DNA from: a virus
Length of the DNA stretch: 34,778 nt
IMG/VR virus record: IMGVR_UViG_3300021519_000032
Coordinates: 1-34,778 of that record
Strand: one strand, 5' to 3'
Shown here piece by piece: positions 3,644 to 27,718 of the stretch. The translations under genes and the position numbers were made by a program. Every line of letters begins with the position of its first letter. Position 1 is the first letter of the stretch. The notes under the pieces were generated by a model. It ran no database searches. It saw nothing but the letters and a program-made list of their open reading frames with translations, and had not been told where the DNA came from.

Positions 3644-5194
3644 TTATATATAGTTTTGGCGATTGTTGCGGGTAAATTTAAGACGGTCAACCAGTTTACT
3701 GATCCCGCCGGGCGATGCCACTACCCACCCTTCGTGACCGGGCTGCTGCCTATCTAACTGCTGCAATAGGTCCATTTTAATGTCATGTAATAATACAAAT
3801 GCTGTGAAAGCCGCGCCCATTCCATCTAAATTAGAACTGGGACTCTGCAGATATTCTACAATATTTCTATATTTGCGTGGTGTTACCGCATCACGCAACC
3901 ACGTACCAAACCTCGAAATCAATGTGTCAGCAGTAAACCCTTCTTCATGTTCGCTCTGTATCACATTGTTTATGAAATCCACACATAATCTTGGGAGATC
4001 GCTTATCTGCATCTGCCTAAGTTCTGCTGGATTAAACAACGTGTCGATATCATTACCATGCATCTCTATTATACTTCGTAGTTGTTTAGTTAAATTACGG
4101 TCGCTGGGTTTAACATTATCAGTTGGTCTAACCGGATTAATAATTGATAGCCCTGGTACTGGATTAAGTTTTATATTACCAATGGGTTGTTTAGCAGCGC
4201 CATGATCTTTATAATAGGTATGTATAGCTACCCCCATATGGCTATTGGCTATGCTTTCGCCTATTTCGCTATTTGTTGGGATTTTATATTCCACAGTATT
4301 GGGCTTAAAAACTAAAGCGCCTGTGTCTTCTATGGGTTTCTCTGAGTACAGTAGATCACCATGAATAAAACCTCGAAACTTCGGAGGTACAGCTCGAGCT
4401 AACAAGGGCCATAACATTTCATATATAGGCGCCAGGTGTTCTTTACGAGTTCCCATATCATCAGCATCTCTGCCATCTAAGTGACTTACAAGATTGGCGG
4501 GATTAGAAAATAATCCATCGTATGTTTTAGCGTTATATCCACTAACATCAGTTAGTATAAATGCACCGTTTTGGTCGCGGCCAAATATAATAGCTGGTTT
4601 ACCGTCCCATTTTACCGTTGCTGAATTGGGCGCATCCTTGGACAAATGTCTAATATGAGTAAGTGCATCGGCAATCCCCGCTACACCTTTTCTAAATACT
4701 AAATCTTCAATGTGATCTATACCACGTGTTCTGCCACCGTGAATCTCGGGTAGATCAGATTCTATTAACTTCAACATGCCCCTATTAACGATACGATCAC
4801 GTAATCTAGAGAGGAAATTAATATCAGATTCGCTCTGTGGGTTGGGATTCTTTACAAAACTAAAATCAGTCTGTATAAAGCCTTTCGCAGGATTACCATT
4901 AATTGGAGTTTTAAAATAGATCTTTGACCCTGAATTTTTTACATATTCTCTTGATTTAAGCTCTTGACTATCACACCAATGGCGTAATTCGGCCATTAAC
5001 TGATCTGGGGATATTTTATTAGCGTCTATATTAAGTTCTAGTTTATGTAAACTATGCTGGTCGGCATTACTAATATTGTCCAGTAGATTTAAATCAACCA
5101 TGTGCTCAAGCCATTGCACCGTTGTCTTAATGTCCGTTTGTTCGATACGTTGGGTATCTAACTTTCCATCATTATTATTAAACACCAGATGCAT
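3644..5194 (-). CDS. Putative ATP-dependent ligase-like nucleotidyltransferase (DUF6267-like)
   Basis: A 516-aa protein. Residues 195-198 are KWDG inside TVKWDGKPAIIFGRD, matching motif I (KxDG, the lysine that carries AMP) of DNA/RNA ligases and capping enzymes. Further fitting segments are FRGFIHGDLLY (273-283, like motif III/IIIa) and VFKPNTVEYKIP (295-306, near motif IV). Ahead of the motif lies GGRTRGIDHIEDLVFRKG (153-170), which I associate with phage proteins grouped as DUF6267 that carry a KWDG(A/K)PA motif. Residues 1-150 and 310-516 are not recognised. It could join nucleic acid ends or adenylate another target. Motif I is clear; the other motifs are approximate. GGA precedes the ATG, and the gene overlaps the upstream 83-aa gene by 17 bases. 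Confidence 0.7.
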   Translation of the reverse strand: MHLVFNNNDGKLDTQRIEQTDIKTTVQWLEHMVDLNLLDNISNADQHSLHKLELNIDANKISPDQLMAELRHWCDSQELKSREYVKNSGSKIYFKTPINGNPAKGFIQTDFSFVKNPNPQSESDINFLSRLRDRIVNRGMLKLIESDLPEIHGGRTRGIDHIEDLVFRKGVAGIADALTHIRHLSKDAPNSATVKWDGKPAIIFGRDQNGAFILTDVSGYNAKTYDGLFSNPANLVSHLDGRDADDMGTRKEHLAPIYEMLWPLLARAVPPKFRGFIHGDLLYSEKPIEDTGALVFKPNTVEYKIPTNSEIGESIANSHMGVAIHTYYKDHGAAKQPIGNIKLNPVPGLSIINPVRPTDNVKPSDRNLTKQLRSIIEMHGNDIDTLFNPAELRQMQISDLPRLCVDFINNVIQSEHEEGFTADTLISRFGTWLRDAVTPRKYRNIVEYLQSPSSNLDGMGAAFTAFVLLHDIKMDLLQQLDRQQPGHEGWVVASPGGISKLVDRLKFTRNNRQNYI

Positions 5195-5482: not shown

Positions 5483-6874
5483 TTAACTACTCTTAATTTG
5501 TGATAACATCTGTTTTAATTTATTACTTTGCAATTCTGCTGTAATTTTTCCTGTCCCTTCTTTATTTTCAGTATCTACTACTCTGCTTTGTGTTTTAATG
5601 TTTTCCAGTACATTGGGACGTTTAAATGAGCTTACTGCACTTGCATCTTCGGGCAAATCACTAATTCTCATAGTTTCTACGTTGTATTCCAACTCTACTT
5701 TTTGTCCCACACCAGTACTGCTACGCGATTTCATACACTGAATTTGATAACGCCCACGCTCTTTCATAGCCCTGCTGGTAAAAATACCGAATACATTATC
5801 TGCTGTGTTAATCTTACTAATACCACCAGCGATATGACTATGGTCAAATTCAATTTCTTCCACTGCACTTCGATTTAATTGCGATGCGGTTACGAATAAT
5901 ACACCCAGTTCTTGCGATAAATTACGCAGTTCTTCTGCTACATACTTGTCCTTGATAAACTGATCGTTAGGATTTACCTTGACGGATACTGGCATTACTA
6001 AATCCAAATAATCCACCATAACAAAGTCAACTTTAATACCAGTTTGCACTTGCACTTCTTTCAAATATGCACGAATATCATTTACATTGCTCTGTGCAGG
6101 TAATGCCTTGACGCGATATTGCCCAGCTTTTTTGCTAAAGACTCTAACTTTTAGTTCTGCTGAATCCAAATCTTTCCTAATATCTTTAGTAGACATACCG
6201 GATAACATAGCATCAGTTCGTAAACCAACTAGTTCTTCACTAAGTTCTAGACTAACATACACACCACTTAACCCCTGTTCCAGCCAACTAATAGCAATGT
6301 TCATCATAACCAAGGATTTACCTGATCCAGATCCGCCCGCAAAGATATTTAATTCGCCTCGGCTAAATCCACCATATAATATTTTATCTAGGCTTGGCCA
6401 TCCTGTACTTACTTGTCCACCACTGTTAAAATATTTGTCATTTCTTGCTTTGGGACTGGCAAAATAATCTGTTCCCATATCCTTTTGCAGGCTAATCTGC
6501 ACAGCATCTTTAATTAATTTTTCTACCGGTGCATATTCACCTTTTTCCAATAAGTCTGCTGATTTAAGAATAGCTCGTTCAAGTTCCTGTCGTTGAGTAA
6601 ACTTCTCAAATTCTTCCATAAACCATTCTAAACTACCATCAGGTAGATCAGGAATCGCATTTAATTTTATTCCGGTTGTAGCTGATACCTGTGCTAGAAT
6701 AGGCAAAGAACTATGGTTAGCATAGTGTTCTTTAATAAATTCTGCTGCCGGCCTAACACTTCGATCAAAGTTTTCTGGGTTATATATGTTCTGCACACGA
6801 ATAAAAGACTCAGCATCGTGTAGCATCATCTCCAAAAATAACCGTTGTGTCTCAATTCCGTAGTCGTTTAACAA
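5483..6874 (-). CDS. gp41: Replicative DNA helicase, DnaB/T4 gp41 type
   Basis: A 463-aa hexameric helicase that unwinds the replication fork, working with the primase encoded just upstream. The N-terminal domain (1-130) is helical. The RecA-like core has Walker A GGSGSGKS at 180-187, a segment typical of DnaB helicases (VYVSLELSEE, 206-214), and Walker B VDFVMVDYLDLV at 282-293. The length is close to T4 gp41 (475 aa). The start codon is TTG at 6874: AAGGA lies about 9 bases upstream, and the next ATG would remove about 14 residues. The gene overlaps the end of the primase gene by 23 bases, which should couple helicase and primase synthesis. Confidence 0.95.
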   Translation of the reverse strand: MLNDYGIETQRLFLEMMLHDAESFIRVQNIYNPENFDRSVRPAAEFIKEHYANHSSLPILAQVSATTGIKLNAIPDLPDGSLEWFMEEFEKFTQRQELERAILKSADLLEKGEYAPVEKLIKDAVQISLQKDMGTDYFASPKARNDKYFNSGGQVSTGWPSLDKILYGGFSRGELNIFAGGSGSGKSLVMMNIAISWLEQGLSGVYVSLELSEELVGLRTDAMLSGMSTKDIRKDLDSAELKVRVFSKKAGQYRVKALPAQSNVNDIRAYLKEVQVQTGIKVDFVMVDYLDLVMPVSVKVNPNDQFIKDKYVAEELRNLSQELGVLFVTASQLNRSAVEEIEFDHSHIAGGISKINTADNVFGIFTSRAMKERGRYQIQCMKSRSSTGVGQKVELEYNVETMRISDLPEDASAVSSFKRPNVLENIKTQSRVVDTENKEGTGKITAELQSNKLKQMLSQIKSS

Positions 6875-7823
6875 GTTGTCTTTTCCTTAATTCAATTTTA
6901 ATTCTGCTGGTTTCTTTAGATTGCAATATAGTTATTAATGTTGCAATCTTACCCAATTTTATCACTGCGTCATTTACATCTTTAATACCATCGGGCCAGT
7001 CGGGAATACTGACCGCCCAATTTAATTCTACCGCACGATCTACTAATTCCATACCCGCGATGTCCTGATCCGGGACCACAATTATTTCTTTACCTATATT
7101 GCGTATTAACCTAGCTTGTGCATCGCTTACTGTATTATGCATTAATGCTAATCCGTCAATGCTTAATGCATCAAATATACCTTCTGTTACGATTACATAT
7201 TGCCAATCTTGTTGTTGCAGGTCAGTACCAAATACATATCCTGGCTGAAAATAATTGATCCATACCGGTTTACGATCATCTAAAAATCGTACCGTACTAC
7301 CAACTAATGTGTTATTATAGGTAAATGGAATAATAACCCCGGTCCGTGCGCCCTTAGTTGAGCTAATCATATAAGGATAGTCAATCGGTGCTTGCCTGCG
7401 GCGTAAGTAATTCCAAATATCTGTATGCTCGGGAGTTACAAATTCTACACCTCCCATGTCTCTTTCTTCAAAATGTATGCCTAATATAGCATCAGCAGTT
7501 CGTTGTCTATCATCTATCATGCCCTCAATACTACGATGCCGCAGACTTTCTAATTGAATTCTGTCGATTTCTTCTGCAGGAACATTGAGCCAGGATAAAA
7601 ATTTACGTGCTTTGATGCTAAGATTGCGTCCTAATATAAAACTAGCTGTAAAATTACAATTAAAACAATGATAACTCCAGCCCTCGATACTGCCTTTAAA
7701 TCCGCCACGTTGACGCCGATCTACGCTTTCACCATTATGTATGCAACAAGGTCCATTAAATGACACCCAGCCTGAGTTGGATTGTTTTCTTTTTGCTGGT
7801 AAGAAGGAGATGATGTCAATCAT
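6852..7823 (-). CDS. gp61: DNA primase, T4 gp61 type
   Basis: A 323-aa DnaG-type primase that makes RNA primers at the fork with the gp41 helicase. A zinc-binding motif sits at the N-terminus: Cys27-x-His29 and Cys53-x2-Cys56 (YHCFNCNF). The Toprim catalytic domain has VTEGIFDAL with Glu214-Gly215 and VPDQD with Asp252 and Asp254. The C-terminus is basic. The length is close to T4 gp61 (342 aa). ATG at 7823 has only a weak ribosome binding site; an out-of-frame ATG lies just upstream. Gene order primase then helicase with overlap supports the call. Confidence 0.93.
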   Translation of the reverse strand: MIDIISFLPAKRKQSNSGWVSFNGPCCIHNGESVDRRQRGGFKGSIEGWSYHCFNCNFTASFILGRNLSIKARKFLSWLNVPAEEIDRIQLESLRHRSIEGMIDDRQRTADAILGIHFEERDMGGVEFVTPEHTDIWNYLRRRQAPIDYPYMISSTKGARTGVIIPFTYNNTLVGSTVRFLDDRKPVWINYFQPGYVFGTDLQQQDWQYVIVTEGIFDALSIDGLALMHNTVSDAQARLIRNIGKEIIVVPDQDIAGMELVDRAVELNWAVSIPDWPDGIKDVNDAVIKLGKIATLITILQSKETSRIKIELRKRQLVKRLRN

Positions 7824-9078: not shown

Positions 9079-9459
9079 ATGAACAAAGAAATCTTTGAAA
9101 AACTAACCGAAAAATATCCATTTATAACCCTATGTGTATACTCTACTCAGGAATATGTGGGAATAATACAAAACCGCGATGACGCAATTACCACTATGTA
9201 CGATTTTGGTAGCATCATTGACATGGAGGCTAAAAAGCTATTTTTAGAATTAGCCAATGTGTGGTGGTGGGAAAGTAACAGAAGTATCCCCATTAATATA
9301 TTTCTTAAAAAAGAATGGGAACCATTCAGGGTATATATTCGTACTTTTGTCAATAAGGACCTTGAAATAGTGCATGGTCCGATATGTAGTCTGGCGGAAT
9401 TAGCCCGCAACAAATCAAAACGTAGGTCTATTACACTTGTTCGACGGATGCCGGACTAG
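9079..9459 (+). CDS. Conserved phage hypothetical protein, only plus-strand gene
   Basis: A 126-aa protein starting MNKEIFEKLTEKYPFITLCVY, with EYVGIIQNRDD near residue 25, a WWWESNRSIPINIFL block near residues 62-76, and a basic C-terminus (NKSKRRSITLVRRMPD). The pattern matches, from memory, a widespread unknown protein of T4-like marine phages, so it is a real gene rather than an antisense artefact. The basic tail suggests nucleic acid contact, but this is weak inference. It runs opposite to every other gene and its last 29 bases overlap the 3' end of the convergent minus-strand gene, allowing antisense interference. Confidence 0.85.
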   Translation: MNKEIFEKLTEKYPFITLCVYSTQEYVGIIQNRDDAITTMYDFGSIIDMEAKKLFLELANVWWWESNRSIPINIFLKKEWEPFRVYIRTFVNKDLEIVHGPICSLAELARNKSKRRSITLVRRMPD

Positions 9460-10021
9460 GGTCTTCCAATAGATTCATATGCAATGCCACTAGTGCTGAG
9501 TAGCTTATACTGTGTGACTTTTTAAAAGTAAAACCTCGGCTATCATCACCGTCCCATACGCTGGCAAACACTTCTTTCCAGGGACGATTTTGTAAATGCG
9601 CTTTCCCAGGACGTATAATTGCTATAAATGCCGCCATTCTAGTGATGGAATCGGGCTGCATGTTTACCAATAAATCAATATATTTCCCTACGTGTACCAG
9701 ATTTTTAGTCCATTCGGGGTCAGTCCATAGGCGTTGCCAATTAGGCTCTTTGGCCAACAGTTGATCATACTGTTCTTGTGACTTTATCAGCTTGTACACA
9801 TTCATATTCAACAGATCTATCTTAAAATAACCACGATCTTCGGCTTCTTTATAGTCTATTGCCGCGCATTGGTGTATGGGATCGTAGGGAATTTCGGTTA
9901 CATATACTCCGGAATTATGGTTACGAACTTTTCCCTGCACCGTTTGCCGTGCGGGTATAGCCTTAATCAGCTTTAATACCTGTTCTCTATCTGCTAAGTC
10001 TAAATCAATATCTGCTGACAT
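9431..10021 (-). CDS. Miniature DNA polymerase III alpha (DnaE)-like protein
   Basis: A 196-aa protein whose landmarks follow the order of bacterial DnaE (C-family polymerase). SADIDLDLADR (2-12) matches the PDFDVDF motif holding two catalytic Asp (Asp4 and Asp6 here). NHNSGVYVTEIPYDP (34-48) matches the HAGGVVI region. EDRGYFKIDLLNM (61-73) matches GLVKFDFLGL with the third catalytic Asp (Asp69). AAFIAIIRPGK matches ALVALYRPGP. FTFKKSHSISYSALVAL matches FGFNKSHAVAYALISY. PHP, finger and C-terminal domains are absent, so independent polymerase activity is doubtful. ATG 10021 overlaps the upstream stop (TAATG) and AGG precedes it; an upstream TTG at 10027 is less likely. The relationship is judged by eye. 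Confidence 0.72.
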   Translation of the reverse strand: MSADIDLDLADREQVLKLIKAIPARQTVQGKVRNHNSGVYVTEIPYDPIHQCAAIDYKEAEDRGYFKIDLLNMNVYKLIKSQEQYDQLLAKEPNWQRLWTDPEWTKNLVHVGKYIDLLVNMQPDSITRMAAFIAIIRPGKAHLQNRPWKEVFASVWDGDDSRGFTFKKSHSISYSALVALHMNLLEDPSPASVEQV

Positions 10022-10695
10022 TACCAACCTGCCTTTTTTAATAATTCCTGCGCTGCTGTGCGATTTTCAGGATCTTCTTTTAGTTTCTTGGTCCAGATAT
10101 CTGGATCAATATATGACCATATCATCGTGCGATGTTCGCTGGTCATTTCCGACAAAAACTTCTGTCCCGAGTCGGAATTATATAATATCCACGGGCTAAC
10201 CCGACCTGCAATAATAGCCTGTACAATAGCATTGTGATTGCCATATCTTAAATAATCGTGTGATGGCGCACCTTTATCTTCACTCCAGTCTAGGGAATGT
10301 TCGATGGCTCTAGTTAGGGCGTCTTCCATACGTTCTACCTTAAGATAAAACAACAGATATTCTTCATATAGTGCGTCACTGCACCAGTAATCTAATTTTT
10401 TATTTTGTTTTAATATCCATTCAATAAATCTTGCAGGATTTACTACTCGTGTATTGACACAATAGTGGCCAAACTTCACAAAAGCCTTGTAGTACGGGCT
10501 ATCACAAAAGTTGTCATATGTTTTTGACTTTGCCGAACCCTGGGTTAATTCATAAAATTTAAGATATGCATTGAATCCTAATCGCACACCTGCTTCATCT
10601 TTTACTTGTCTGCGCCGTCTTGGCTCACACGAATGTGCGGCCAAGCTGGATTCTCTTACAAAAGATTTTTTACAATACTGGCAAGTATTATTCAT
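10021..10695 (-). CDS. C2H2 zinc-finger-like conserved phage protein
   Basis: A 224-aa protein. The N-terminus CQYCKKSFVRESSLAAHSC (5-23) has a Cys-x2-Cys pair and a His-x-Cys end, a C2H2/C2HC finger layout, followed by the basic stretch PRRRRQVK. The remainder is helical with aromatic-rich segments (SPYYKAFVKFGHYCVN, SPWILYNSDSGQKFL). The zinc finger suggests nucleic acid or protein binding. The long C-terminal domain is not recognised, though similar unknown proteins occur in T4-like marine phages from memory. It is coupled to the DnaE-like gene by TAATG and to the gene before it by ATGA, so the three may act together. Confidence 0.8.
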   Translation of the reverse strand: MNNTCQYCKKSFVRESSLAAHSCEPRRRRQVKDEAGVRLGFNAYLKFYELTQGSAKSKTYDNFCDSPYYKAFVKFGHYCVNTRVVNPARFIEWILKQNKKLDYWCSDALYEEYLLFYLKVERMEDALTRAIEHSLDWSEDKGAPSHDYLRYGNHNAIVQAIIAGRVSPWILYNSDSGQKFLSEMTSEHRTMIWSYIDPDIWTKKLKEDPENRTAAQELLKKAGW

Positions 10696-12115: not shown

Positions 12116-13576
12116 TTATTTCCATTCCAATTTTTCTTGGGTATATGGATAGTTGGCGTCTTTGTAAAATACTTTGCGTTTAGTTAAATGTCGCTTGGCA
12201 AATTTACAAGTTGATGTTATGTCCCATATTTGCACATGGTCCTTGTCTTCTGCCTTTCTGATACCACGGCCTATGCTTTGGATAACCCTAACAAAAGATT
12301 TACCAGGCTCAATAAGCACCAGATTAAAGATCCTAGGAATATTGATTCCAACAGCGGCGACACCGTAAGTTGCCACGATAATTTTACCCGTGCTAATTGC
12401 GACCTCAGCATATTCTTCATCTCTTTTAGTTCCTTTAGTTGCCCCACTAACAAATACCGCGTGATCTCCCAGTAGTTCTACTAGTGCATGGCCCGCAGCA
12501 ACACGATCCACCAGCACTAATGTATTGCCTGTTTGGTTTACATTACCCACCAGTTTAGCTACAGTTTCCAGACGTTCTTTATTTTCCAACAAAAATTTCA
12601 GTTCGCTTTGATAATTTGCAAATTCTGCATGATCAACTAGTTGTACAATATTCACGTGACATTGTGCCAATACCCCACGCTCTTGCAATTCGCTAGCAGA
12701 TAACTGATTGGTAACAGGCCCAAGACTACATGTTAATGCTTGGAATTCAAAAGGTTCCTTGGGCACAGTACCAGTTAATCCCCAGCGAATGGGGATACGA
12801 CTCATTACTGTGGTCAGTAAAGTTTTAAGTGCATCTGCTTTGGCCATATGTACTTCATCTACCATTACACACACTACGCCTTCTAAAAATTCTTGTATCG
12901 TAATATCTGTATTATAGTTTTTGGTATTTTTAAGTAAATTATTTAGACTTTGCCAGGTACAAATAGTATGAGTTTTTCCAATATCTTTTCTATCACCAAA
13001 GTAAACGCCAACATCTAATTCTAAACTTAGATAATCTCGTTCTGTTTGCGTCACTAATGACTTATTTGGGACGATTACTATTGTCCTACCATGTGCTTCA
13101 CACCGTTGGCTTAGGGCTGCTGTCATAATTGTTTTACCAGCACCAGTGGCAACTTCTTGTATGGATTGTGGATTTGTCAAAAAGTTATTAATAATTTCAA
13201 CTTGGTAGTCGCGCAGTTTAATAGGTTGCCCAGCCAGTGGATGACCTTTTCCCCACATAATATGAGAAAACGTATCTTCCGTTACACGTTCAAATGTAAA
13301 GCTAGTTGAATAATCTCGTTGGTCATCAAGTTCGATATTATAGTTGAAATTATCCAATATGGGAATAATCTCGGGCAGCAGATTCAGATACGTGCTTCCG
13401 CCCAATTGGAAATATGCTACCTTGCCGTCCCACCGACCCAGTCTAACTGCTGGTTGATAACGTGCGCCTGGTACATCATATTTGAAGGTGTTGACTAGTT
13501 TTCGTCTAGCATCCAGCTCAAGTCCTTCGATTTTAATATTGACCTCATCCTTGACTATGATGGTGGCTGTTTTCAT
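12116..13576 (-). CDS. uvsW: RNA-DNA and DNA helicase UvsW
   Basis: A 486-aa superfamily 2 helicase. T4 UvsW unwinds R-loops and branched DNA and drives the switch from origin- to recombination-dependent replication. Seen here: an N-terminal substrate-binding domain (1-100), Q-motif-like LRDYQVEII (121-129), Walker A ATGAGKT (143-149), DEVH box (240-243), LTGT (267-270), and a C-terminal helicase domain ending with QSIGRGIRK. The length is close to T4 UvsW (503 aa). It overlaps the stop of the UvsY-like gene by ATGA, so the two recombination proteins are coupled. Confidence 0.95.
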   Translation of the reverse strand: MKTATIIVKDEVNIKIEGLELDARRKLVNTFKYDVPGARYQPAVRLGRWDGKVAYFQLGGSTYLNLLPEIIPILDNFNYNIELDDQRDYSTSFTFERVTEDTFSHIMWGKGHPLAGQPIKLRDYQVEIINNFLTNPQSIQEVATGAGKTIMTAALSQRCEAHGRTIVIVPNKSLVTQTERDYLSLELDVGVYFGDRKDIGKTHTICTWQSLNNLLKNTKNYNTDITIQEFLEGVVCVMVDEVHMAKADALKTLLTTVMSRIPIRWGLTGTVPKEPFEFQALTCSLGPVTNQLSASELQERGVLAQCHVNIVQLVDHAEFANYQSELKFLLENKERLETVAKLVGNVNQTGNTLVLVDRVAAGHALVELLGDHAVFVSGATKGTKRDEEYAEVAISTGKIIVATYGVAAVGINIPRIFNLVLIEPGKSFVRVIQSIGRGIRKAEDKDHVQIWDITSTCKFAKRHLTKRKVFYKDANYPYTQEKLEWK

Positions 13577-14025
13577 AACTGTACATCTTCCATTCCTGCT
13601 GCTCTAAGTCGCACAACATGTCCTAACATAAAATTTTTGGATTCAAGTGATTTCATAATGCCCAAATAACGATTGCGTAGTAACGCAACTTCATTGATAA
13701 GTGTTTCAAAATCAATAACATCGTCTTCACCATCAACATATTTTTCAGCATCTCGACTGGTCAGTGCGCGAGCATAACCTTCTAAGTATTTCTGAAAGAA
13801 TTTTCGACGTATCTTACGCAGTTGTATATTAAGAAAGTTTAATACTGCTTCTATTTCTTGTAATTGGTTAAACCTATGCTCAGTAATGCCCGGTAGGGCG
13901 GTAATATTCTTTTCAATAATACCCCCTATCTGGCAATCCTGTTTGGCTTTTACGAGTTCGGCTTCATAATGTGAGATAAAATCTGGTATCATACTTAAAT
14001 CAGCCGCAACACGACTATACCACAT
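13573..14025 (-). CDS. uvsY: Recombination mediator UvsY-like
   Basis: A 150-aa helical, basic-centred protein. The C-terminal part (EKYVDGEDDVIDFETLINE ... SLESKNFMLGHVVRLR) resembles the conserved end of UvsY proteins of T4-like phages (a W/YV..DDxV block, then a K.RNF..K/H helix). UvsY loads UvsX onto single strands covered by gp32. Length is close to T4 UvsY (137 aa). Location between uvsX and uvsW, with an ATGA overlap to uvsW and GAGGA before the ATG, supports the call. Recognition is by pattern, so moderately sure. Confidence 0.78.
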   Translation of the reverse strand: MWYSRVAADLSMIPDFISHYEAELVKAKQDCQIGGIIEKNITALPGITEHRFNQLQEIEAVLNFLNIQLRKIRRKFFQKYLEGYARALTSRDAEKYVDGEDDVIDFETLINEVALLRNRYLGIMKSLESKNFMLGHVVRLRAAGMEDVQL

Positions 14026-14284: not shown

Positions 14285-15343
14285 TTATTCCTCCGTAGTT
14301 ATGTCTTCAGTACTTACTGTTTCTGGATGCTTTCCAAAATTCTCCATAATTTTATCCAAGCAACCATCTTCGTTGGCTTCCCATTTTTTGCGGAATTGTT
14401 TGATAACTTCACCGTCCGGGGTAACAAACACTAGACTGTTGCCTTCTTTCTTCAACATCTCACGCTTTTCAGCTAGGTCCACCATGCCGCTGTATGGGTT
14501 CATACCAGTCTCATAAGGGATCTTGATCTGCATACCTTCAAATGGTTTTGCATATCGTGTTTTCATTACTTTACAACCTGCACGAATACCCATTACATCG
14601 GAGATTTTGTTGCCATCTTCATCTTCTTTCAACTTCATTTTCTTCATAGCAACAACAATACTAGATGCATAGATAAATCCTTGTCCGCCTGAGATTTTAT
14701 CATCAGGGTCAAACATATCTTGACTTGCATATGTGTGATTGGTACATACCATACCCACGTTGTAACTACCAAACATGTTTACACAATTACGAACAAGTGA
14801 TGTAAGTGCTTTAGGTTTACGACCCATGTCACCTTTCATATCACCATCATCAAACTGTTTAACATCGGTGGGAGTTAACAACATACCCAGAGAGTCAATA
14901 ACAAATAGAACCTTGGGACGTTCACCTTCCGTCAGTGTTTTGTAATCGCTCATAAACGTTGCGATTGTCTTGGCTACGTCATCAATCATAGCCATGTTAA
15001 GTTTAAGTAACTTGCTTTCGTCAGTATCAACGCCTAGTGCTTGTAACCAAGATTCATCTAGCGCATTTTCTGAGTCAATTAACACAACAAAGATACCTTT
15101 CTCTTGTGCGTTCTTAACAATGTTACCCGAACAAATATAACTCTTACCGGCACCTGATTCACCGGCAAATACTGTTACCTTACCCAAGGGAATACCTTTG
15201 TTAAAGTCCCCACTAATAAGATAATTTAAGGCAAAATTGCCTGTCGAAATCCAATCTGTCGGATCGTTGTATCCGATTGACATACCTTCAATTGATTTGG
15301 TAATGTCCTTTCTAAATTTGCTAAAGTCATACGGCTTAGCCAT
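14285..15343 (-). CDS. uvsX: RecA-like recombinase UvsX
   Basis: A 352-aa strand-exchange ATPase for phage recombination and repair. Walker A is GESGAGKS (61-68), after KVTVFA. A Walker B-like strand VLFVIDSLGMLL follows near residues 145-156, and GGQGFIYASSIVVAMKKM fits the DNA-binding/loop region of RecA family proteins. The length is near T4 UvsX (391 aa). AAGGA stands 8 bases before the ATG. The gene follows gp32 after a 72-base gap holding a stable hairpin, and leads into the uvsY-uvsW genes. Confidence 0.95.
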   Translation of the reverse strand: MAKPYDFSKFRKDITKSIEGMSIGYNDPTDWISTGNFALNYLISGDFNKGIPLGKVTVFAGESGAGKSYICSGNIVKNAQEKGIFVVLIDSENALDESWLQALGVDTDESKLLKLNMAMIDDVAKTIATFMSDYKTLTEGERPKVLFVIDSLGMLLTPTDVKQFDDGDMKGDMGRKPKALTSLVRNCVNMFGSYNVGMVCTNHTYASQDMFDPDDKISGGQGFIYASSIVVAMKKMKLKEDEDGNKISDVMGIRAGCKVMKTRYAKPFEGMQIKIPYETGMNPYSGMVDLAEKREMLKKEGNSLVFVTPDGEVIKQFRKKWEANEDGCLDKIMENFGKHPETVSTEDITTEE

Positions 15344-15415: not shown

Positions 15416-16402
15416 TTATGTCTTTTGGCGTGCTTTGATTCTAGCTAAGATGTCTGCCGGATTCATTGGCGCAGATGCAGCCGCAGCTACCGGTGCTGTT
15501 GGCATGTCATCGTCATCATCAAAACTACTTGAAGTAGCGACAGGAGTTGGCTTTGTAGGCACAAATTCTTCATCATCTGCTGGTGCTGCTGCTGGTGCCG
15601 AAGATTGTGATGCTGGGGCTTGTAAGCCTGCTGGGCGGAAATACTGCCCCCAACGTTCTGCATCATAGCTTTGTCCATCAACTGACGCTTCAAACATTTC
15701 TGCGATAACTTTAAGTTCGATTTCTGTCGGACGCTTTGGTAGGAATGTTGACAGATCGAACAATCCATACTGTTCAATTGCCGCTTGTTCAGCTGCTAGT
15801 AGAGCTGATTCTTTACGTGCCCATTTAGATGAACTGTAGTCAGCGAACCCACCTTTAGAGCCCTTGGTAACACGGAAATCCAGGCCACGCAGATAGTCTG
15901 TTGGCAATTCTTCCAGTTCAGGATCCATCAATGCTGATTTGATTGACGTAAAGATTTGTGGTCCAATAATAAAACGACGGATTGGATTGTCTGGAGTCTT
16001 GTCGTCGGCGAGAGGATTCTCACGAACGAAGCCTTGGAAAATGTAATCACGCTTTTTCCAATACTTGCGACCCATCTCTTCCATTGATTTATCTTTAAAC
16101 CAATTGCGTACTTCGCTAAGAATTGGGCAAGTATCGCCCCACATTTCTACACATGGAACACGTACTTGTACTTGTTTTGATTCCACTTCGCCTTTAATGC
16201 CAGCGAATGGTAAACGAATCATCGCACGTTCTTGCCAGAAGAATGTGTTCTTTGAATTACCGTCTGGGATAAAGCGTAGTGTCGCGGCGGTGCCTTCTGC
16301 AATGTTCCAGTGTGGATAAATTGCGTTGTCGCCTTGTGATTGGTTGGAGTTTTTTGTTTCTGATTGTGCTAAACGAGCACGGATTTCTGCTAATGATGCC
16401 AT
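15416..16402 (-). CDS. gp32: Single-stranded DNA-binding protein, T4 gp32 type
   Basis: A 328-aa protein that coats single-stranded DNA and organises replication and recombination proteins. The N-terminus (MASLAEIRARLAQ) is basic as in gp32 cooperativity domains. The core holds aromatic and basic residues typical of the family (GRKYWKKRDYIFQGFV; RFIIGPQIF). The C-terminal part is a low-complexity Ala/Pro region with acidic patches (DDEEF, five consecutive Asp), then a basic end. The T4 zinc site is not complete: only Cys84 and Cys92 are present and no third Cys follows. The upstream region contains direct repeats around the start codon. Family placement is by pattern and by the neighbouring uvsX. 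Confidence 0.9.
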   Translation of the reverse strand: MASLAEIRARLAQSETKNSNQSQGDNAIYPHWNIAEGTAATLRFIPDGNSKNTFFWQERAMIRLPFAGIKGEVESKQVQVRVPCVEMWGDTCPILSEVRNWFKDKSMEEMGRKYWKKRDYIFQGFVRENPLADDKTPDNPIRRFIIGPQIFTSIKSALMDPELEELPTDYLRGLDFRVTKGSKGGFADYSSSKWARKESALLAAEQAAIEQYGLFDLSTFLPKRPTEIELKVIAEMFEASVDGQSYDAERWGQYFRPAGLQAPASQSSAPAAAPADDEEFVPTKPTPVATSSSFDDDDDMPTAPVAAAASAPMNPADILARIKARQKT

Positions 16403-22838: not shown

Positions 22839-23327
22839 TTAGCTTTGCCCGTTTACGCCTGCGGTAGCAGATGAAGCAGTTCCTAATTCACGAGCAGTAA
22901 AGTTAGCACCAGTGATAGTCAAATAATTACCGGCACCAACAAAAATCTGTTGACGGCCATTAGCTGACACTTGTGGTGCAGCAGAATATAAATTACCGTT
23001 AGGCGGAGTTGTTACAGTAAAGACATTAGTAGCATTTGCTGTAGCATTAGCACTGATTGTTACACTGGTAAATGGAATCTGTGAAGCTATAGTTGCCCCG
23101 CCTGGAATTCCTGTGCCAGAAATTGCGCTACCAGCAGGCAATGCCATTGCTGCGCTGGTGGTAATAACTTTACTAAGATTGGCAGTAGTGCCACTAAATG
23201 TAATTTGTGGTGGCAACGCAACCTGATAAATGTTGTATGTAACAGCGGTATTGCCTGTTACAATTTCACATTTATCAGTGTACCAAATTACATTTGATGC
23301 TGATGTTAGTACGTTTGCCTGTGACAT
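22839..23327 (-). CDS. Small virion-like protein with GTGIP repeat motif
   Basis: A 162-aa protein starting MSQANVLTSASNVIWYTDKC. It is Thr/Ala/Gly-rich and poor in charge, with the motif GSAISGTGIPGGATIASQ followed by VTISANATANATNVFTV; this GTGIP/ATA motif recurs in many phage tail and adhesion proteins. The C-terminus is GQS. The ATG overlaps the stop of the 1463-aa gene as TAATG, with GGAAGGG just before it, so translation is coupled. Structural role inferred from composition and place. Confidence 0.75.
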   Translation of the reverse strand: MSQANVLTSASNVIWYTDKCEIVTGNTAVTYNIYQVALPPQITFSGTTANLSKVITTSAAMALPAGSAISGTGIPGGATIASQIPFTSVTISANATANATNVFTVTTPPNGNLYSAAPQVSANGRQQIFVGAGNYLTITGANFTARELGTASSATAGVNGQS

Positions 23328-26300
23328 TACCCTTCCTTATTTTCTATCGCAGAAATAGTTTTATACAAATCTACCATACGCTGCCCTTCGGATACATGAC
23401 TATGTAAACGTTTGACTTGACTTGCCACAACGGGAGTCGTTGTCTGCCCAGATGATTTAGCACCGTTCAATCCACCTGACAGATTTTGTGTCATCATCCG
23501 TGTATCAGCTTTAACCTGATTAGTTGGATAATCTGGAGCGTTTTTTGTAACCGGAGCAACAGCTTCTGCAATACCAGCTAACTCACGTAAACGTTGGTTT
23601 TCTGAGTTACGTTGTATTGATTCCGACGTTGGTGCATTAGCTTGCGAGCCTGTATACTGTTGATCAGCCAATTTTTTCGCAACATTTTTACTGTCAGTAC
23701 TGGCAAACATACCTATCTCTTCCGGTTGCCACATTGGGGTAGTATTGCTCACAGTTCTTTTATATGTATAACGTTTACCTTTGATCCAGTATGGAACCTT
23801 TTTGTCAGCTTGCATTGGGATTTCTTCTGGTGAAGTTACCTCGGTAGCGTTACCGAATTCATTCTGCATACTTTGTGCAATTTGATCATTAGTTCCCGCA
23901 GTAGGCATACCAGGTCCCCCTGTGCTTGGGCCGTCGGAGGAATCGGCTGTTGCAGCCGCCATGTTGGCTGCATCAACATCAGCACCGGTACCACCACCGG
24001 CGCCGCTCGTAGTCGGACCGTCAGCGGCGTTGGCAACAGCAGCAGCTTGTGCAGAATTGTTAGCCCTGTTAAGGGCTGCTTGCATAGCGCGGCCGTCGTC
24101 GGCATCAGCAGCATCGGCACTTGCGCCAGCTTGATCTGCACCACTACTAGCTGTGCTACCTGTTGGGAATAACCCATTATACTGGTTAAGTAAAGAACTG
24201 AGTTCTGGATCGGGTTGTTCTGTACTACCTAACTCCTTGTACAGAGCCTCTATTTCTTTCTTTTCATCAGGAGTCAAATCTTCCAGCAATCTCATTTTGT
24301 TAAGGAAATAACTTATGCTTTCAGGCACACCAGTAACAGGGGCGGTGTCGGGATTAACCGGTCCGCCTTGGGTTTCTGGGCTACGTCCATTGCCAGCGTC
24401 GGTAGGATTAGGTGCAGCACGTTCGCGTGCTTTAGCCAATAGTGCTTTGAATTTTGCTATCTTATCAGCTTGAGACGTAGCGGCAGGTGGAGTAGGTGCT
24501 GGTCTACCTTGTTGTTCTGGGCTTACATTTTGTCCATTAACCCTACCAGCTTGTGCTGACATTGCTGCTTTAGACTCCGGTCCCCACACGCCATCAACTG
24601 CAACTTTTAATTCTCCTTGTTTCTTCATAACTGCGGCTTTAGTTTGTGGGCCAAAGTCACCATCCGCCGGTTTAATTCCTAGCAGATTCTGTAAGGCAGT
24701 AACTTCTGGACCTTTGCTACCTACAGCTAACAAACCACCAGCTGCTGCTGGTGCTGCTGGTTTTGCTGCCGCTGCTGGTGCCGCTGCGGCTGGTGCCGCT
24801 GCTGGTGCTGCGCCTGCTCCGGTAGCTGCGCCTACCCCCGGTGCTTTTGCTGCCACAGGCTTACCACCGTTTGGCGCACGACTAAGAATTAAAGGATCCA
24901 ACGGATTAGCATGTCCCAAGAATTTTTGATCTGCTGGGCTCATTTTAGAATAAGCCTGTGCCTGTGGGCTACCTGCTGGCCAAGGACCGTTTGGGCCAGG
25001 AGGTACAGGTGCCGATGGTGGAAATGTTTCAGCCTCGCCGACAGCCTCATCTATTTCTATGAAATCGGAAGGCATACCTTGCGATCCGTGCATGTGTTCT
25101 GCACCATCATCGCCGCCAACACCCATGCCGTGCAGTAATTCTTTAATACGAGCAACGTCATCACCACTTACATCGATAGTAATGGTTTCATCTTCTTCAC
25201 CATCGTCACCTTTGACTGAATTAGTTGTGATATTAATACTTTCAGATAACATGTTGTTATACTTGCGATTCCAGGAATCGTAAATACCTTTGCCCACGGT
25301 AGAACCACCTGCAGATTTACCACCTGCTGCTGGCGCCACTGAACCGGAAGTTGTAGTTTCTTCAACTTTCTTTTCTTTTTTATCTTTCTTTTTACCGCCT
25401 TCTTCATCCTTACCCAAACGACCAGCAACCACATCACCTCGTGTTACTTTGTCATAGGGTTTAGCATTATTGGCTAAGTTACCATCGCCTTTGCCCTCTT
25501 CTGTCTTCTTGGCTGGCTTATCACCTTCCTTGGCTTTTTTAGCTGTTTTATCACTGCCCTTGGCCGGTGCAGCAGGTTTGTCTGGTGACTTAGACTTGTT
25601 GGCTTTGATAGCTTTGTCTACTGACCCAGCATGTTCTGCTTTGCCTGATTCTTTTTTGCCATCATCATCGTAATCTACCTTAGACTTAGCACCGCCAACT
25701 ACTTTGGCTATACCGGCTGCTTTTCTAGCAGCAGGCGCTACGTTATTTACAAAATGACCCATGCCCTGCTTTACAGCTTCTAGGTCAATCTCACGACCCC
25801 GGCCATGCCCTGGCATTGATTGACCACAATGTGGGCATTCGTCAAGATCTTCATCCATTTCTTTTGAACGAGCGTGCTTAGGAACGTGTGTGCCGGCTAA
25901 ACGGGCACCGCCACCGCCTTTACTACCAGCAGGACGTCCACGCTTACGTGGGCCATCTGAACTTGCTACTGGTTTTTCAACTTCATCGCTGTCAAATGGA
26001 ACTTCTTTGCGCTTACGTGTGTACACCGTTCCACCAGCTGGGCTGCTACCACGACTAAATGCAGAGTCTAAATCAGCAGTTGGCTTTCCAAATTTTGAAT
26101 CATATTCATCTGATCCTGGGAACATGCTTCCTTCAAATTCCATGCCATTGTGTGCATCAGCAGCACCCGAACGGCCATTGTATGGGCGGCTGGTTGCACG
26201 CGATTTTGGATTAGCTGGCGCAATTTTATTTTTTAAATAAGACAAAATATCATCTTCTGACTCATCTAGTGGCTTAGGTTTACTACCGGATGCCACGACT

Positions 26301-27718
26301 TCGTAATCATCAGGATCAGTATCGAAATGTTTTCCACATAGTCTGTCTATCGCATGGCCTACCGATTGCCCAAGAACATTTCTTGCTACTAATTTCCAGG
26401 ACGGCATTCCATGGCGTTCGGTCCACATATAAATGTCTTTCAACTCATTATAGTCATGTGTTTCGTCTAGGTCAGTCATAACTGGCGGTTTGCCAGAATC
26501 CATTCCAGAGATTCTACGTGAATTTTGTATGTCTCTTTTTTCTTTACCTAATCGACGGCTGTGTCCGGATATCCAGGCATCGGTAAATTTGTCGTTTTTC
26601 GGATTCATATCTTTTGGTTGTTCACCGTGCATATCACATTCTCCCATGGCACATTCTGCACATCCTTCATATCCTTCATATTCAGCTTTGCGAATATCTT
26701 TTGTCGGATAATCAAGTTCATCGTTACGTGACTGATGATCTTCGGGATCATAGCCATAACCTCTGCCATGAATACCTCTTTCACCTCGACGCATAGAAAA
26801 ATCAGTGTAGTCGCCGGAATTACTAGATTTTCTTCTAGGTGTATGCTTATGTGTTGGCTCACCTTGTTGAATTTTTCCACCCTTGGCAAGAAAAGCAGCT
26901 ACTGGATCATCTGCCTCGTCTTTATTTTCGTATAATTTATCATGGGCCAACTGATTTATTTCATCGTATTGTTCGTCATTTAATTGATCTATTTCATCGT
27001 CAGTTAATGGAGTTCCATCCGCAAATTCTGCATATTCTATATATGCATCAGCAAAATCAGGATAATCTCTGGTATCAACGCCACCCATTTCTATGCTACT
27101 ACGATCAATTGGATGCCCATTAAGAGTCATGCCCGATGCTTGGTGCGAGTGATGGTGAGATTCTCCCATACCTTGTTGGCCAGCTTTTGCTCGGGCTTCT
27201 TCTCTAGTAGGGCTGAATCCTTCTGCTCGTGCTTGTGCGTGTTGTCTAGGATAAACTGATGCTTTCATTAACTTACCATCTATAACGATATACCAGTCTG
27301 ATGGATCTAGATCATGCCGCTCATCATCTTCACGATCTCTAGCGCCGCCTACCCCACGGAAACCACGGCCTGCTTCATCAACTTTTTTCTTACCTTTGCC
27401 TTGTATGTTAAGGGCAAAGTTAGCACGTTTCTTTTCTAGAGGAGTACCCGATTTCTTAAGACTGTTTAATTTTTTGTCGCCAATTTTCTTGTCTTGTGGA
27501 ATACCTTCTTGCTTATGTAAGGCACCTTTCTTAACTGTCTTGGCAGCTTTGCTCAAGGATTTATCTTCCATAAGACTACGTAGGTCAGTACGTAATGCTT
27601 CTTCAAATGTCTGTTTAGCAGGTGACTTAGCAGCAACAGTTCGTGTTTCAACTAATGGTGCCTTGGGTTCAGCACCGATGCCGGTTAGTCTTTTGTTTAG
27701 GTCATAAAATGGGTTCAT
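23327..27718 (-). CDS. Giant multi-module phage protein with peptidoglycan-binding domain
   Basis: A 1463-aa protein. N-terminal region with KKGALHKQEGIPQDKKIG (64-80). His-rich ESHHHSHQ (186-193). Cys cluster CAECAMGEC (353-361). AT-hook-like KRGRPAGSK (592-600). Zinc-knuckle-like CPHCGQ (628-633). EF-hand-like DYDDDGKKES (682-691). Lys-rich spacer (700-785). Ala/Pro linker (952-993). A peptidoglycan-binding type 1 domain (about 995-1057) with GSKGPEVTALQNLLG, DGDFGPQTKAAV and a second VDGVWGPESKAAM half. LRELAGIAEAV at 1377-1387. No lytic catalytic domain is seen, so it is not an endolysin. It could be a head-internal or ejected protein that touches DNA and cell wall (inference). AAAGGA precedes the ATG. 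Confidence 0.8.
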   Translation of the reverse strand: MNPFYDLNKRLTGIGAEPKAPLVETRTVAAKSPAKQTFEEALRTDLRSLMEDKSLSKAAKTVKKGALHKQEGIPQDKKIGDKKLNSLKKSGTPLEKKRANFALNIQGKGKKKVDEAGRGFRGVGGARDREDDERHDLDPSDWYIVIDGKLMKASVYPRQHAQARAEGFSPTREEARAKAGQQGMGESHHHSHQASGMTLNGHPIDRSSIEMGGVDTRDYPDFADAYIEYAEFADGTPLTDDEIDQLNDEQYDEINQLAHDKLYENKDEADDPVAAFLAKGGKIQQGEPTHKHTPRRKSSNSGDYTDFSMRRGERGIHGRGYGYDPEDHQSRNDELDYPTKDIRKAEYEGYEGCAECAMGECDMHGEQPKDMNPKNDKFTDAWISGHSRRLGKEKRDIQNSRRISGMDSGKPPVMTDLDETHDYNELKDIYMWTERHGMPSWKLVARNVLGQSVGHAIDRLCGKHFDTDPDDYEVVASGSKPKPLDESEDDILSYLKNKIAPANPKSRATSRPYNGRSGAADAHNGMEFEGSMFPGSDEYDSKFGKPTADLDSAFSRGSSPAGGTVYTRKRKEVPFDSDEVEKPVASSDGPRKRGRPAGSKGGGGARLAGTHVPKHARSKEMDEDLDECPHCGQSMPGHGRGREIDLEAVKQGMGHFVNNVAPAARKAAGIAKVVGGAKSKVDYDDDGKKESGKAEHAGSVDKAIKANKSKSPDKPAAPAKGSDKTAKKAKEGDKPAKKTEEGKGDGNLANNAKPYDKVTRGDVVAGRLGKDEEGGKKKDKKEKKVEETTTSGSVAPAAGGKSAGGSTVGKGIYDSWNRKYNNMLSESINITTNSVKGDDGEEDETITIDVSGDDVARIKELLHGMGVGGDDGAEHMHGSQGMPSDFIEIDEAVGEAETFPPSAPVPPGPNGPWPAGSPQAQAYSKMSPADQKFLGHANPLDPLILSRAPNGGKPVAAKAPGVGAATGAGAAPAAAPAAAAPAAAAKPAAPAAAGGLLAVGSKGPEVTALQNLLGIKPADGDFGPQTKAAVMKKQGELKVAVDGVWGPESKAAMSAQAGRVNGQNVSPEQQGRPAPTPPAATSQADKIAKFKALLAKARERAAPNPTDAGNGRSPETQGGPVNPDTAPVTGVPESISYFLNKMRLLEDLTPDEKKEIEALYKELGSTEQPDPELSSLLNQYNGLFPTGSTASSGADQAGASADAADADDGRAMQAALNRANNSAQAAAVANAADGPTTSGAGGGTGADVDAANMAAATADSSDGPSTGGPGMPTAGTNDQIAQSMQNEFGNATEVTSPEEIPMQADKKVPYWIKGKRYTYKRTVSNTTPMWQPEEIGMFASTDSKNVAKKLADQQYTGSQANAPTSESIQRNSENQRLRELAGIAEAVAPVTKNAPDYPTNQVKADTRMMTQNLSGGLNGAKSSGQTTTPVVASQVKRLHSHVSEGQRMVDLYKTISAIENKEG

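Follow-up and report, generated by a model that had tools for sequence, protein, structure and literature searches.

The C-terminal half of a predicted two-subunit minimal C-family DNA polymerase in T4-like large phages

A DNA fragment of 34,778 nucleotides from an uncultured virus (IMG/VR record IMGVR_UViG_3300021519_000032, here called the window) carries a short gene that is confirmed, by its motifs, their order, and its predicted fold, as the palm/fingers core of a C-family DNA polymerase. We consider it probable that T4-like large phages have a minimal C-family accessory polymerase made of two subunits and that this gene encodes its C-terminal half. The split, the motifs, the fold, the co-occurrence of the two halves, and their gene neighborhood were computed; from these we infer that the subunits associate, that the enzyme is active, and what its role would be. 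An earlier note on the same DNA had described a 196-amino-acid (aa) protein with the DnaE motifs in collinear order; all five motifs are present in that order, and four of them were placed by coordinate checks (Table 1). The note had also called a miniature C-family relative surprising in a T4-like phage. The relative does belong to a replication module of the T4 type, and its presence there is a genuine surprise, though one already in print: a split minimal PolIIIα in group 2.2 jumbo phages was described by Iyer et al. in 2021 (PMC7824862, in the parts of the article accessible to us).

Table 1. Features of the window in and around the polymerase half
Feature	Position	Strand	Basis
DnaB-like replicative helicase (T4 gp41-like position)	5483..6874	-	Annotation match
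DNA primase (T4 gp61-like position), same replication cluster	6852..7823	-	PHROG
Small gene (PHROG 11637), convergent with the polymerase half and running into its 3' end	9079..9459	+	PHROG, locus comparison
Polymerase half (C-terminal; catalytic Asp/reduced fingers) of split minimal PolIII alpha	9431..10021	-	196 aa, PHROG 11778
FKKSH, counterpart of FNKSH, with His170 in the place of the steric gate His760 of E. coli	9512..9526	-	Coordinate check, alignments
RPGK, counterpart of RPGP in DnaE fingers; Lys140 invariant in mini family	9602..9613	-	Coordinate check, alignments
KID, made up of the invariant Lys67, an Ile, and the third catalytic Asp (Asp69; D555 in E. coli)	9815..9823	-	Coordinate check, 118-row alignment
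DIDLD, counterpart of the PDFDVDF catalytic motif (E. coli D401, D403)	9998..10012	-	Coordinate check, alignments
Upstream neighbor (PHROG 11058) with a C2H2-like zinc finger at its N terminus; distinct from the missing half	10021..10695	-	Pfam, PHROG
DNA helicase (UvsW position)	12116..13576	-	PHROG
UvsY-like recombination mediator	13573..14025	-	Annotation match
UvsX-like recombinase	14285..15343	-	Annotation match
Single-strand DNA-binding protein	15416..16402	-	Annotation match

In the list of open reading frames (ORFs), the gene runs on the minus strand from an ATG at 10021 to a stop codon ending at 9431, and its first residues, MSADIDLD, are encoded at 9998 to 10021; an alternative TTG start at 10027 would give a protein of 198 aa. 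Searches with the single sequence returned little. In Pfam, the window protein gave only one finger match, below threshold (12.8 bits against a cutoff of 22), and phmmer against PDB sequences found no polymerase. In the PHROG library, the protein matched PHROG 11778, labeled "DNA polymerase," over nearly its full length (E value of 3.6e-57), and the full-length PolIIIα family phrog_405 (E value of 3.3e-4). Profile-profile comparison with hhalign found DnaE as well: a 58-row alignment of the C half scored 60.1 (prob 97.4) against 80 full-length DnaE sequences. In a second run with other settings, the C half scored 55.3 (prob 89.2) versus at most 23.2 for 30 column-shuffled copies, and the N half, the second palm gene described below, scored 68.3 versus at most 22.4 for its shuffled copies. 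Against PDB sequences, the family profile of the C half gave weak matches, with PolIII alpha at E values of 0.035 to 0.13 and an unrelated hydroxylase at 0.11 among the 8 rows. The C- and N-half profiles found DnaE chains there and no PolC chain.

The predicted structure points the same way. AlphaFold modeled the window protein with a mean pLDDT of 89.1 and a pTM of 0.80, and the top PDB rows in Foldseek were PolIIIα (E value of 1.5e-4). In VIA structure alignment, the model superposed on the C-family palm: the 14 best PDB rows were all C-family (PolIIIα/PolC), with Z scores of 6.7 to 10.2, 183 to 195 aligned residues, and rmsd values of 3.4 to 4.6 Å, and the next row had a Z score of 3.7. Three of the rows (9qrn, 9qpc, and 9qrl) are titled only "DNA polymerase," and their identity as PolC was deduced from their numbering. 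Fold rows outside the C family were weak (Z score of 3.7 or less), and the absence of other families among them excludes nothing. The first approximately 20 residues of the C half are not put on the DxD motif by hhalign; they are placed there by structure alignment and by one weak HMMER stretch (5lew). The PHROG library, the profiles, and the structures succeed where the single-sequence searches stay below threshold. The resemblance of the C half to C-family polymerases exceeds what chance would give.

The catalytic residues are retained throughout the family. Asp4, Asp6, and Asp69, which make up the DxD and third-Asp metal site of C-family polymerases and which the earlier note had already read as kept, are identical in 118/118 C-half rows (75 distinct sequences), as are Asp8, His35, Gly38, Lys67, Arg137, Pro138, Lys140, and His170; Lys167 is near-invariant (117/118). 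If the enzyme is active, Lys67, Arg137, Lys140, and Lys167 are candidates for contact with the incoming nucleotide. The counterpart of His170, E. coli His760, is the presumed steric gate and is thought to select deoxynucleoside triphosphates (dNTPs) (PMC8485763, in its accessible parts). The palm with its GS motif is divided between two genes: the window gene has the palm by fold and no GS motif, and the GS part is found on a separate N half in its relatives.

The finger domain, which had been thought gone, is instead reduced. The RPG motif and the FKKSH helix are kept, and a relative in phage CM1 passes the cutoff for the Pfam finger domain PF17657 (23.8 versus 22). The window protein does not hold the complete domain, as the YQEQ...RRAMGKK part is missing. 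By hhalign, about 90 finger residues of DnaE, including YQEQ and RRAMGKK, are absent between RPG and FNKSH, and, by comparison of positions, about 100 more are absent between DxD and the fingers. In DnaE, the YQEQ and RRAMGKK segments contact the incoming dNTP. Because they are missing, catalysis could be weak or altered. Neither half (about 170 and 196 aa) has a Pfam match to a PHP domain, an OB fold, or a C-terminal domain; with these and the clamp-binding parts absent, processivity is doubtful.

Such losses, together with the family-B polymerase that these phages already have, would fit a catalytically silent module, in which the assembled mini palm binds primer-template DNA or the host or phage replisome and works as a scaffold or regulator or as a host-polymerase decoy. 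We consider this unlikely. The metal-binding Asp residues and the steric-gate His are all retained in the 75 distinct C sequences, and the GS motif is retained as GRGS in 125/126 N ORFs, the remaining one of which ends at the edge of its contig. In 6 of 8 C-half pairs, dN/dS computed from codon alignments was 0.07 to 0.13 (of the other two pairs, one had no replacement changes and one was saturated), and in 3/3 N-half pairs it was 0.04 to 0.10. Both halves are thus under strong purifying selection, and a decoy would not need metal ligands.

The second half of the enzyme was found in related records. A search of ten of them with Pfam DNA_pol3_alpha revealed, in seven, a second small ORF (169 to 184 aa between stops) with GRGSS. 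The five N-half proteins scanned were all above the DNA_pol3_alpha cutoff. This N half is PHROG 11127, a protein of about 170 aa with the palm GRGSS motif. In most rows its tail reads ...EFLR/K-stop; after the EFLR/K-like position, E. coli DnaE continues toward PDFDVDF, and the counterpart of this motif lies within the first residues of the window protein, MSADIDLD. N ORFs stop at the end of the profile in 107/126 cases and run 1 to 9 residues further in 18, a count that leaves out the tail length of one ORF (L223), whose profile match was mis-split. Structure alignment places residues 73 to 174 of the N model on, at most, residues 277 to 393 of E. coli α, with the 12 best rows C-family and the next row at a Z score of 2.4. 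The window model covers E. coli alpha 399 to 785 (residues 1 to 193) and PolC 970 to 1308 (residues 1 to 196). The junction between N and C falls at 393/399 in E. coli and at 455/460, 413/418, and 965/970 in Thermus, Mycobacterium, and PolC, respectively. This similar gap of 4 to 5 residues in the templates indicates that the two proteins divide the palm between them and share no part of it. At the GS loop (residues 141 to 146), the N model has low confidence (pLDDT of <50), which fits a loop that may need its partner to be ordered; a shallow alignment could have the same effect.

The N gene is a distant one. In the five cultured phages measured, it lies about 11 kb from the C gene in Slickus01, 14 kb in CM1, 33 kb in RaK2, 43 kb in PA5oct, and 224 kb in Phosso. 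No fused or single-gene version was seen: in 256 sequences, many of them fragments or near-duplicates, 249 ORFs were hit, and each held no more than one of the halves. The earlier note had suggested a split enzyme whose other part is the zinc-finger neighbor. The split stands, and the partner does not, since the missing half is a distant gene of about 170 aa with the GS motif. The neighbor does lie directly upstream of the C half in 94/114 loci with enough upstream DNA (near-duplicates included), but it is not adjacent to the C half in RaK2, Phosso, and CM1, Pfam gives it weak C2H2 fingers only, and the true palm half lies elsewhere and co-occurs with the C half. As the palm half, the zinc-finger protein is ruled out, and we judge it extremely improbable that it is the other half of the enzyme. 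A DNA-binding accessory role for it is possible. In the window, the last base of its gene overlaps the start codon of the polymerase half, which suggests that the two may be translationally coupled.

We investigated the distribution of both halves. By tblastn against 50,697 phage records, the C half was found in 63, each match covering 80% or more of the query; relatives of phages RaK2, GAP32, 121Q, PA5oct, Atu_ph07, CBB, Munch, and XacN1 are among them. In IMG/VR, 281 stretches encode a C-half relative, of which the best 80 were used. Among the matches listed (60 of 63 records per half), both halves are present in 59/61 phage accessions; there, PP728206 (109,507 bp) has the C half only and OP752703 the N half only. 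Among 20 IMG/VR records picked for holding one half, C was found in 15, N in 16, and both in 11, with each half single-copy where found. All eight of these records above 300 kb have both halves, and the nine with one half measure 120 to 262 kb. A family-B polymerase was found in 6/10 related records, the four misses being contigs of 120 to 175 kb, and in 10/10 of a second set (RaK2 is counted in both sets). Neither the N half nor a family-B polymerase was found in the 34.8 kb of the window, as expected of such a piece. The 141,644-bp circular genome of Alishewanella phage Slickus01 holds the C half, the N half (E value of 2.5e-16), and family-B polymerase frames; the split is therefore not confined to genomes above 200 kb. 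In the same phage (L259/L271), which is below jumbo size, the family-B polymerase match is also spread over two open frames.

The gene neighborhood places both halves in replication gene clusters: primase, helicase, and UvsW genes are close to the C half, and the clamp loader gene is close to the N half. In the window, the C half lies in the cluster listed in Table 1, and the tail sheath, tail tube, and terminase genes are on its strand. A homologue of the small PHROG 11637 gene is convergent with the C half within 200 bases in 95/116 loci with enough downstream DNA (near-duplicates and repeated records included). RaK2, PA5oct, and Phosso share the order of C half, small convergent gene, structural gene, and primase, although Phosso has an extra gene ahead of the primase; after the primase comes a gene annotated as a helicase in RaK2 and Phosso but as hypothetical in PA5oct. 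Two to seven genes separate the N half from clamp loader gp44 in RaK2, Atu_ph07, and Paride and from an AAA-ATPase at the equivalent position in Phosso; PhoH then follows in Phosso, Atu_ph07, and Paride. Elsewhere in the window, between the terminase and tail-tube genes, a 1,463-aa protein (23327 to 27718, minus strand) is endolysin-like at residues of about 976 to 1096 and is possibly a structural lysin.

We propose that the N subunit, with its ...EFLR/K end, would supply the GRGSS phosphate-binding part of the pol-β-like palm and that the C subunit, starting with M-x-x-DxDxD, would supply the three metal-binding Asp residues and, on a shortened finger, the His steric gate. The halves would associate noncovalently and build a single active site where they join (393/399 of E. 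coli alpha), and the assembled accessory polymerase would act at the phage replisome beside the family-B replicase gp43. Its most likely role would be primer extension on the gp61/gp41 side followed by hand-over to gp43, or else gap filling. We prefer primer extension by analogy with DnaE and PolC of Bacillus subtilis, where a second polymerase, DnaE, beside PolC, briefly extends RNA primers and then hands off (PMC5627055, in its accessible parts).

The main rival role is repair synthesis. An active polymerase could serve repair, recombination-coupled synthesis, or lesion bypass, like ImuC/DnaE2, and not primer extension at the fork. The C half lies within the UvsX-UvsY-UvsW cluster, reduced fingers might leave a loose active site, and repair is named as possible by Iyer et al. 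in the accessible parts of their paper (PMC7824862). Primase and helicase are, however, equally close to the C half, the N half accompanies the clamp loader in 4/4 phages examined, and the polymerase is present in nearly all phages of the group among the matches listed, as expected of a core function. We regard a repair role as rather unlikely. The pol-β superfamily is versatile, and the pol-β-like palm might belong to a nucleotidyltransferase with another product, acting in template-free tailing, primer synthesis, or the making of a signaling nucleotide; the finger deletion and the invariance of Lys140, where DnaE has Pro, would be in keeping with this. We judge it very unlikely, because the RPG and FKKSH elements of DnaE are kept, and with them the steric gate at His170 (E. 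coli His760; PMC8485763, accessible parts). Primer extension next to gp43 remains our preferred reading.

In phylogenetic analysis, a 27-row and a 32-row tree, each of which used one PolC row, both recovered the mini family as a single clade (100/100). In the 27-row tree, the mini family joins two actinophage DnaE sequences (90/92); this grouping dissolved in the 32-row tree, which has wider phage sampling. The 32-row tree took 11 of 49 viral loci related to the DnaE of Lysinibacillus phage LC76P1 and left out ph_rhph (whose motif was missed by the pattern), dac19, Slickus01, and six bacterial rows of the 27-row tree. With these 32 rows, a topology that keeps full-length DnaE together, apart from the mini family and PolC, was not rejected (p-AU of 0.355).

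The same 49 viral loci bear on how the split could have arisen. At DxD, 47 of 48 readable loci are uninterrupted (near-duplicates included; L420 is incomplete), and one, L404 (IMGVR_UViG_3300031555_003379), is broken. Its full-length DnaE is interrupted at the codon of the first catalytic Asp: reading ends at ...EIGD and resumes at IDIDA, and the splice sites were deduced from the point where reading resumes. The insert, at 6165 to 7344, carries a LAGLIDADG ORF and is a group I intron by its match to Rfam RF00028 (87.1 bits, core at 7036 to 7315). LC76P1 itself (L371) has an insert with a LAGLIDADG ORF in its DnaE at the same codon (3741 to 4915), in which Rfam found no intron match. The DxD site of DnaE is thus used by mobile elements, and the split of the mini family (E. 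coli 393/399) is within about eight codons of the L404 intron site (401/402). An Rfam scan of the window gave nothing at the gathering threshold, and our literature search for an intron in phage PolIIIα returned the phrase only within a reference list. An origin of the mini family from a broken gene is plausible given the intron site near the split. More speculatively, and with little confidence, we suggest that large T4-like phages have a two-polymerase replisome whose accessory polymerase would gain activity only once its separately encoded subunits, one from the clamp-loader side and one from the primase/helicase side, come together, so that their assembly may license primer extension. The two halves may descend from a DnaE broken at DxD by a mobile group I intron or homing endonuclease and then miniaturized and scattered. 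Other split DnaE genes were seen in Microbacterium phage Krampus (L257, 2974 to 6325), where the adjacent genes gp56 and gp57 carry a PHP|palm split with the palm on gp57, and in Thomasclavelia phage TR-TP2, beside an annotated HNH endonuclease. Their breaks are at other positions in DnaE.

Among known systems, the split polymerase of Iyer et al. is the closest. In the accessible parts of that paper (PMC7824862), it likewise consists of two standalone halves in distant genes with an accompanying family-B polymerase and shows the same division into an N part that binds nucleoside triphosphates and a C part that binds metal and template. The C half of the window likewise stands alone, as a 196-aa ORF of PHROG 11778, and the window gene is a further member of that system, from an uncultured virus fragment. 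What may be added here is the invariance of the residues, the junction coordinates, the lost part of the finger, the 142-kb phage, and the intron near the split site, although parts of this may already be contained in PMC7824862. The PHROG labels of 11778 and 11127 say DNA polymerase without saying that the two are halves of one enzyme. Judging by size and number, the truncated or predicted α subunit in the accessible parts of the papers on phages CBB and Atu_ph07 is the N half. Our literature search, which did not reach many subscription papers, found no experimental test of the split mini-polymerase.

The mini family shares with bacterial DnaE (E. coli PolIII alpha, DnaE1 to DnaE3, and ImuC) the DxD and third Asp, HxxG, KxDxL, RPG, FxKSH, and GRGS in order, as well as the palm fold, but it comprises two chains of about 370 aa in total, in contrast to about 1,160 aa, with no PHP, OB, or C-terminal domain found. 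The PolC of Geobacillus kaustophilus (3f2b) matches the window model in fold with a Z score of 10.2 over 193 residues; the single PolC row used reads DIDLN, whereas the mini family has DxDxD with an invariant third Asp. In B. subtilis, both enzymes are full-length C-family polymerases, whereas the mini-polymerase phages combine a family-B main replicase with a helper that is split. If the halves form an active enzyme, its active site would be built from two independently encoded proteins, and nature would have provided, in about 370 aa, a minimal C-family polymerase that shows which parts of PolIIIα are needed for catalysis. It would also provide a small system for DNA enzymology and an example of a T4-type replisome using a second polymerase. 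The family is also relevant to the question of whether minimal forms of this kind are remnants of early replicases, as suggested in the accessible parts of Iyer et al. (PMC7824862), or broken and shrunken descendants of full-length enzymes.
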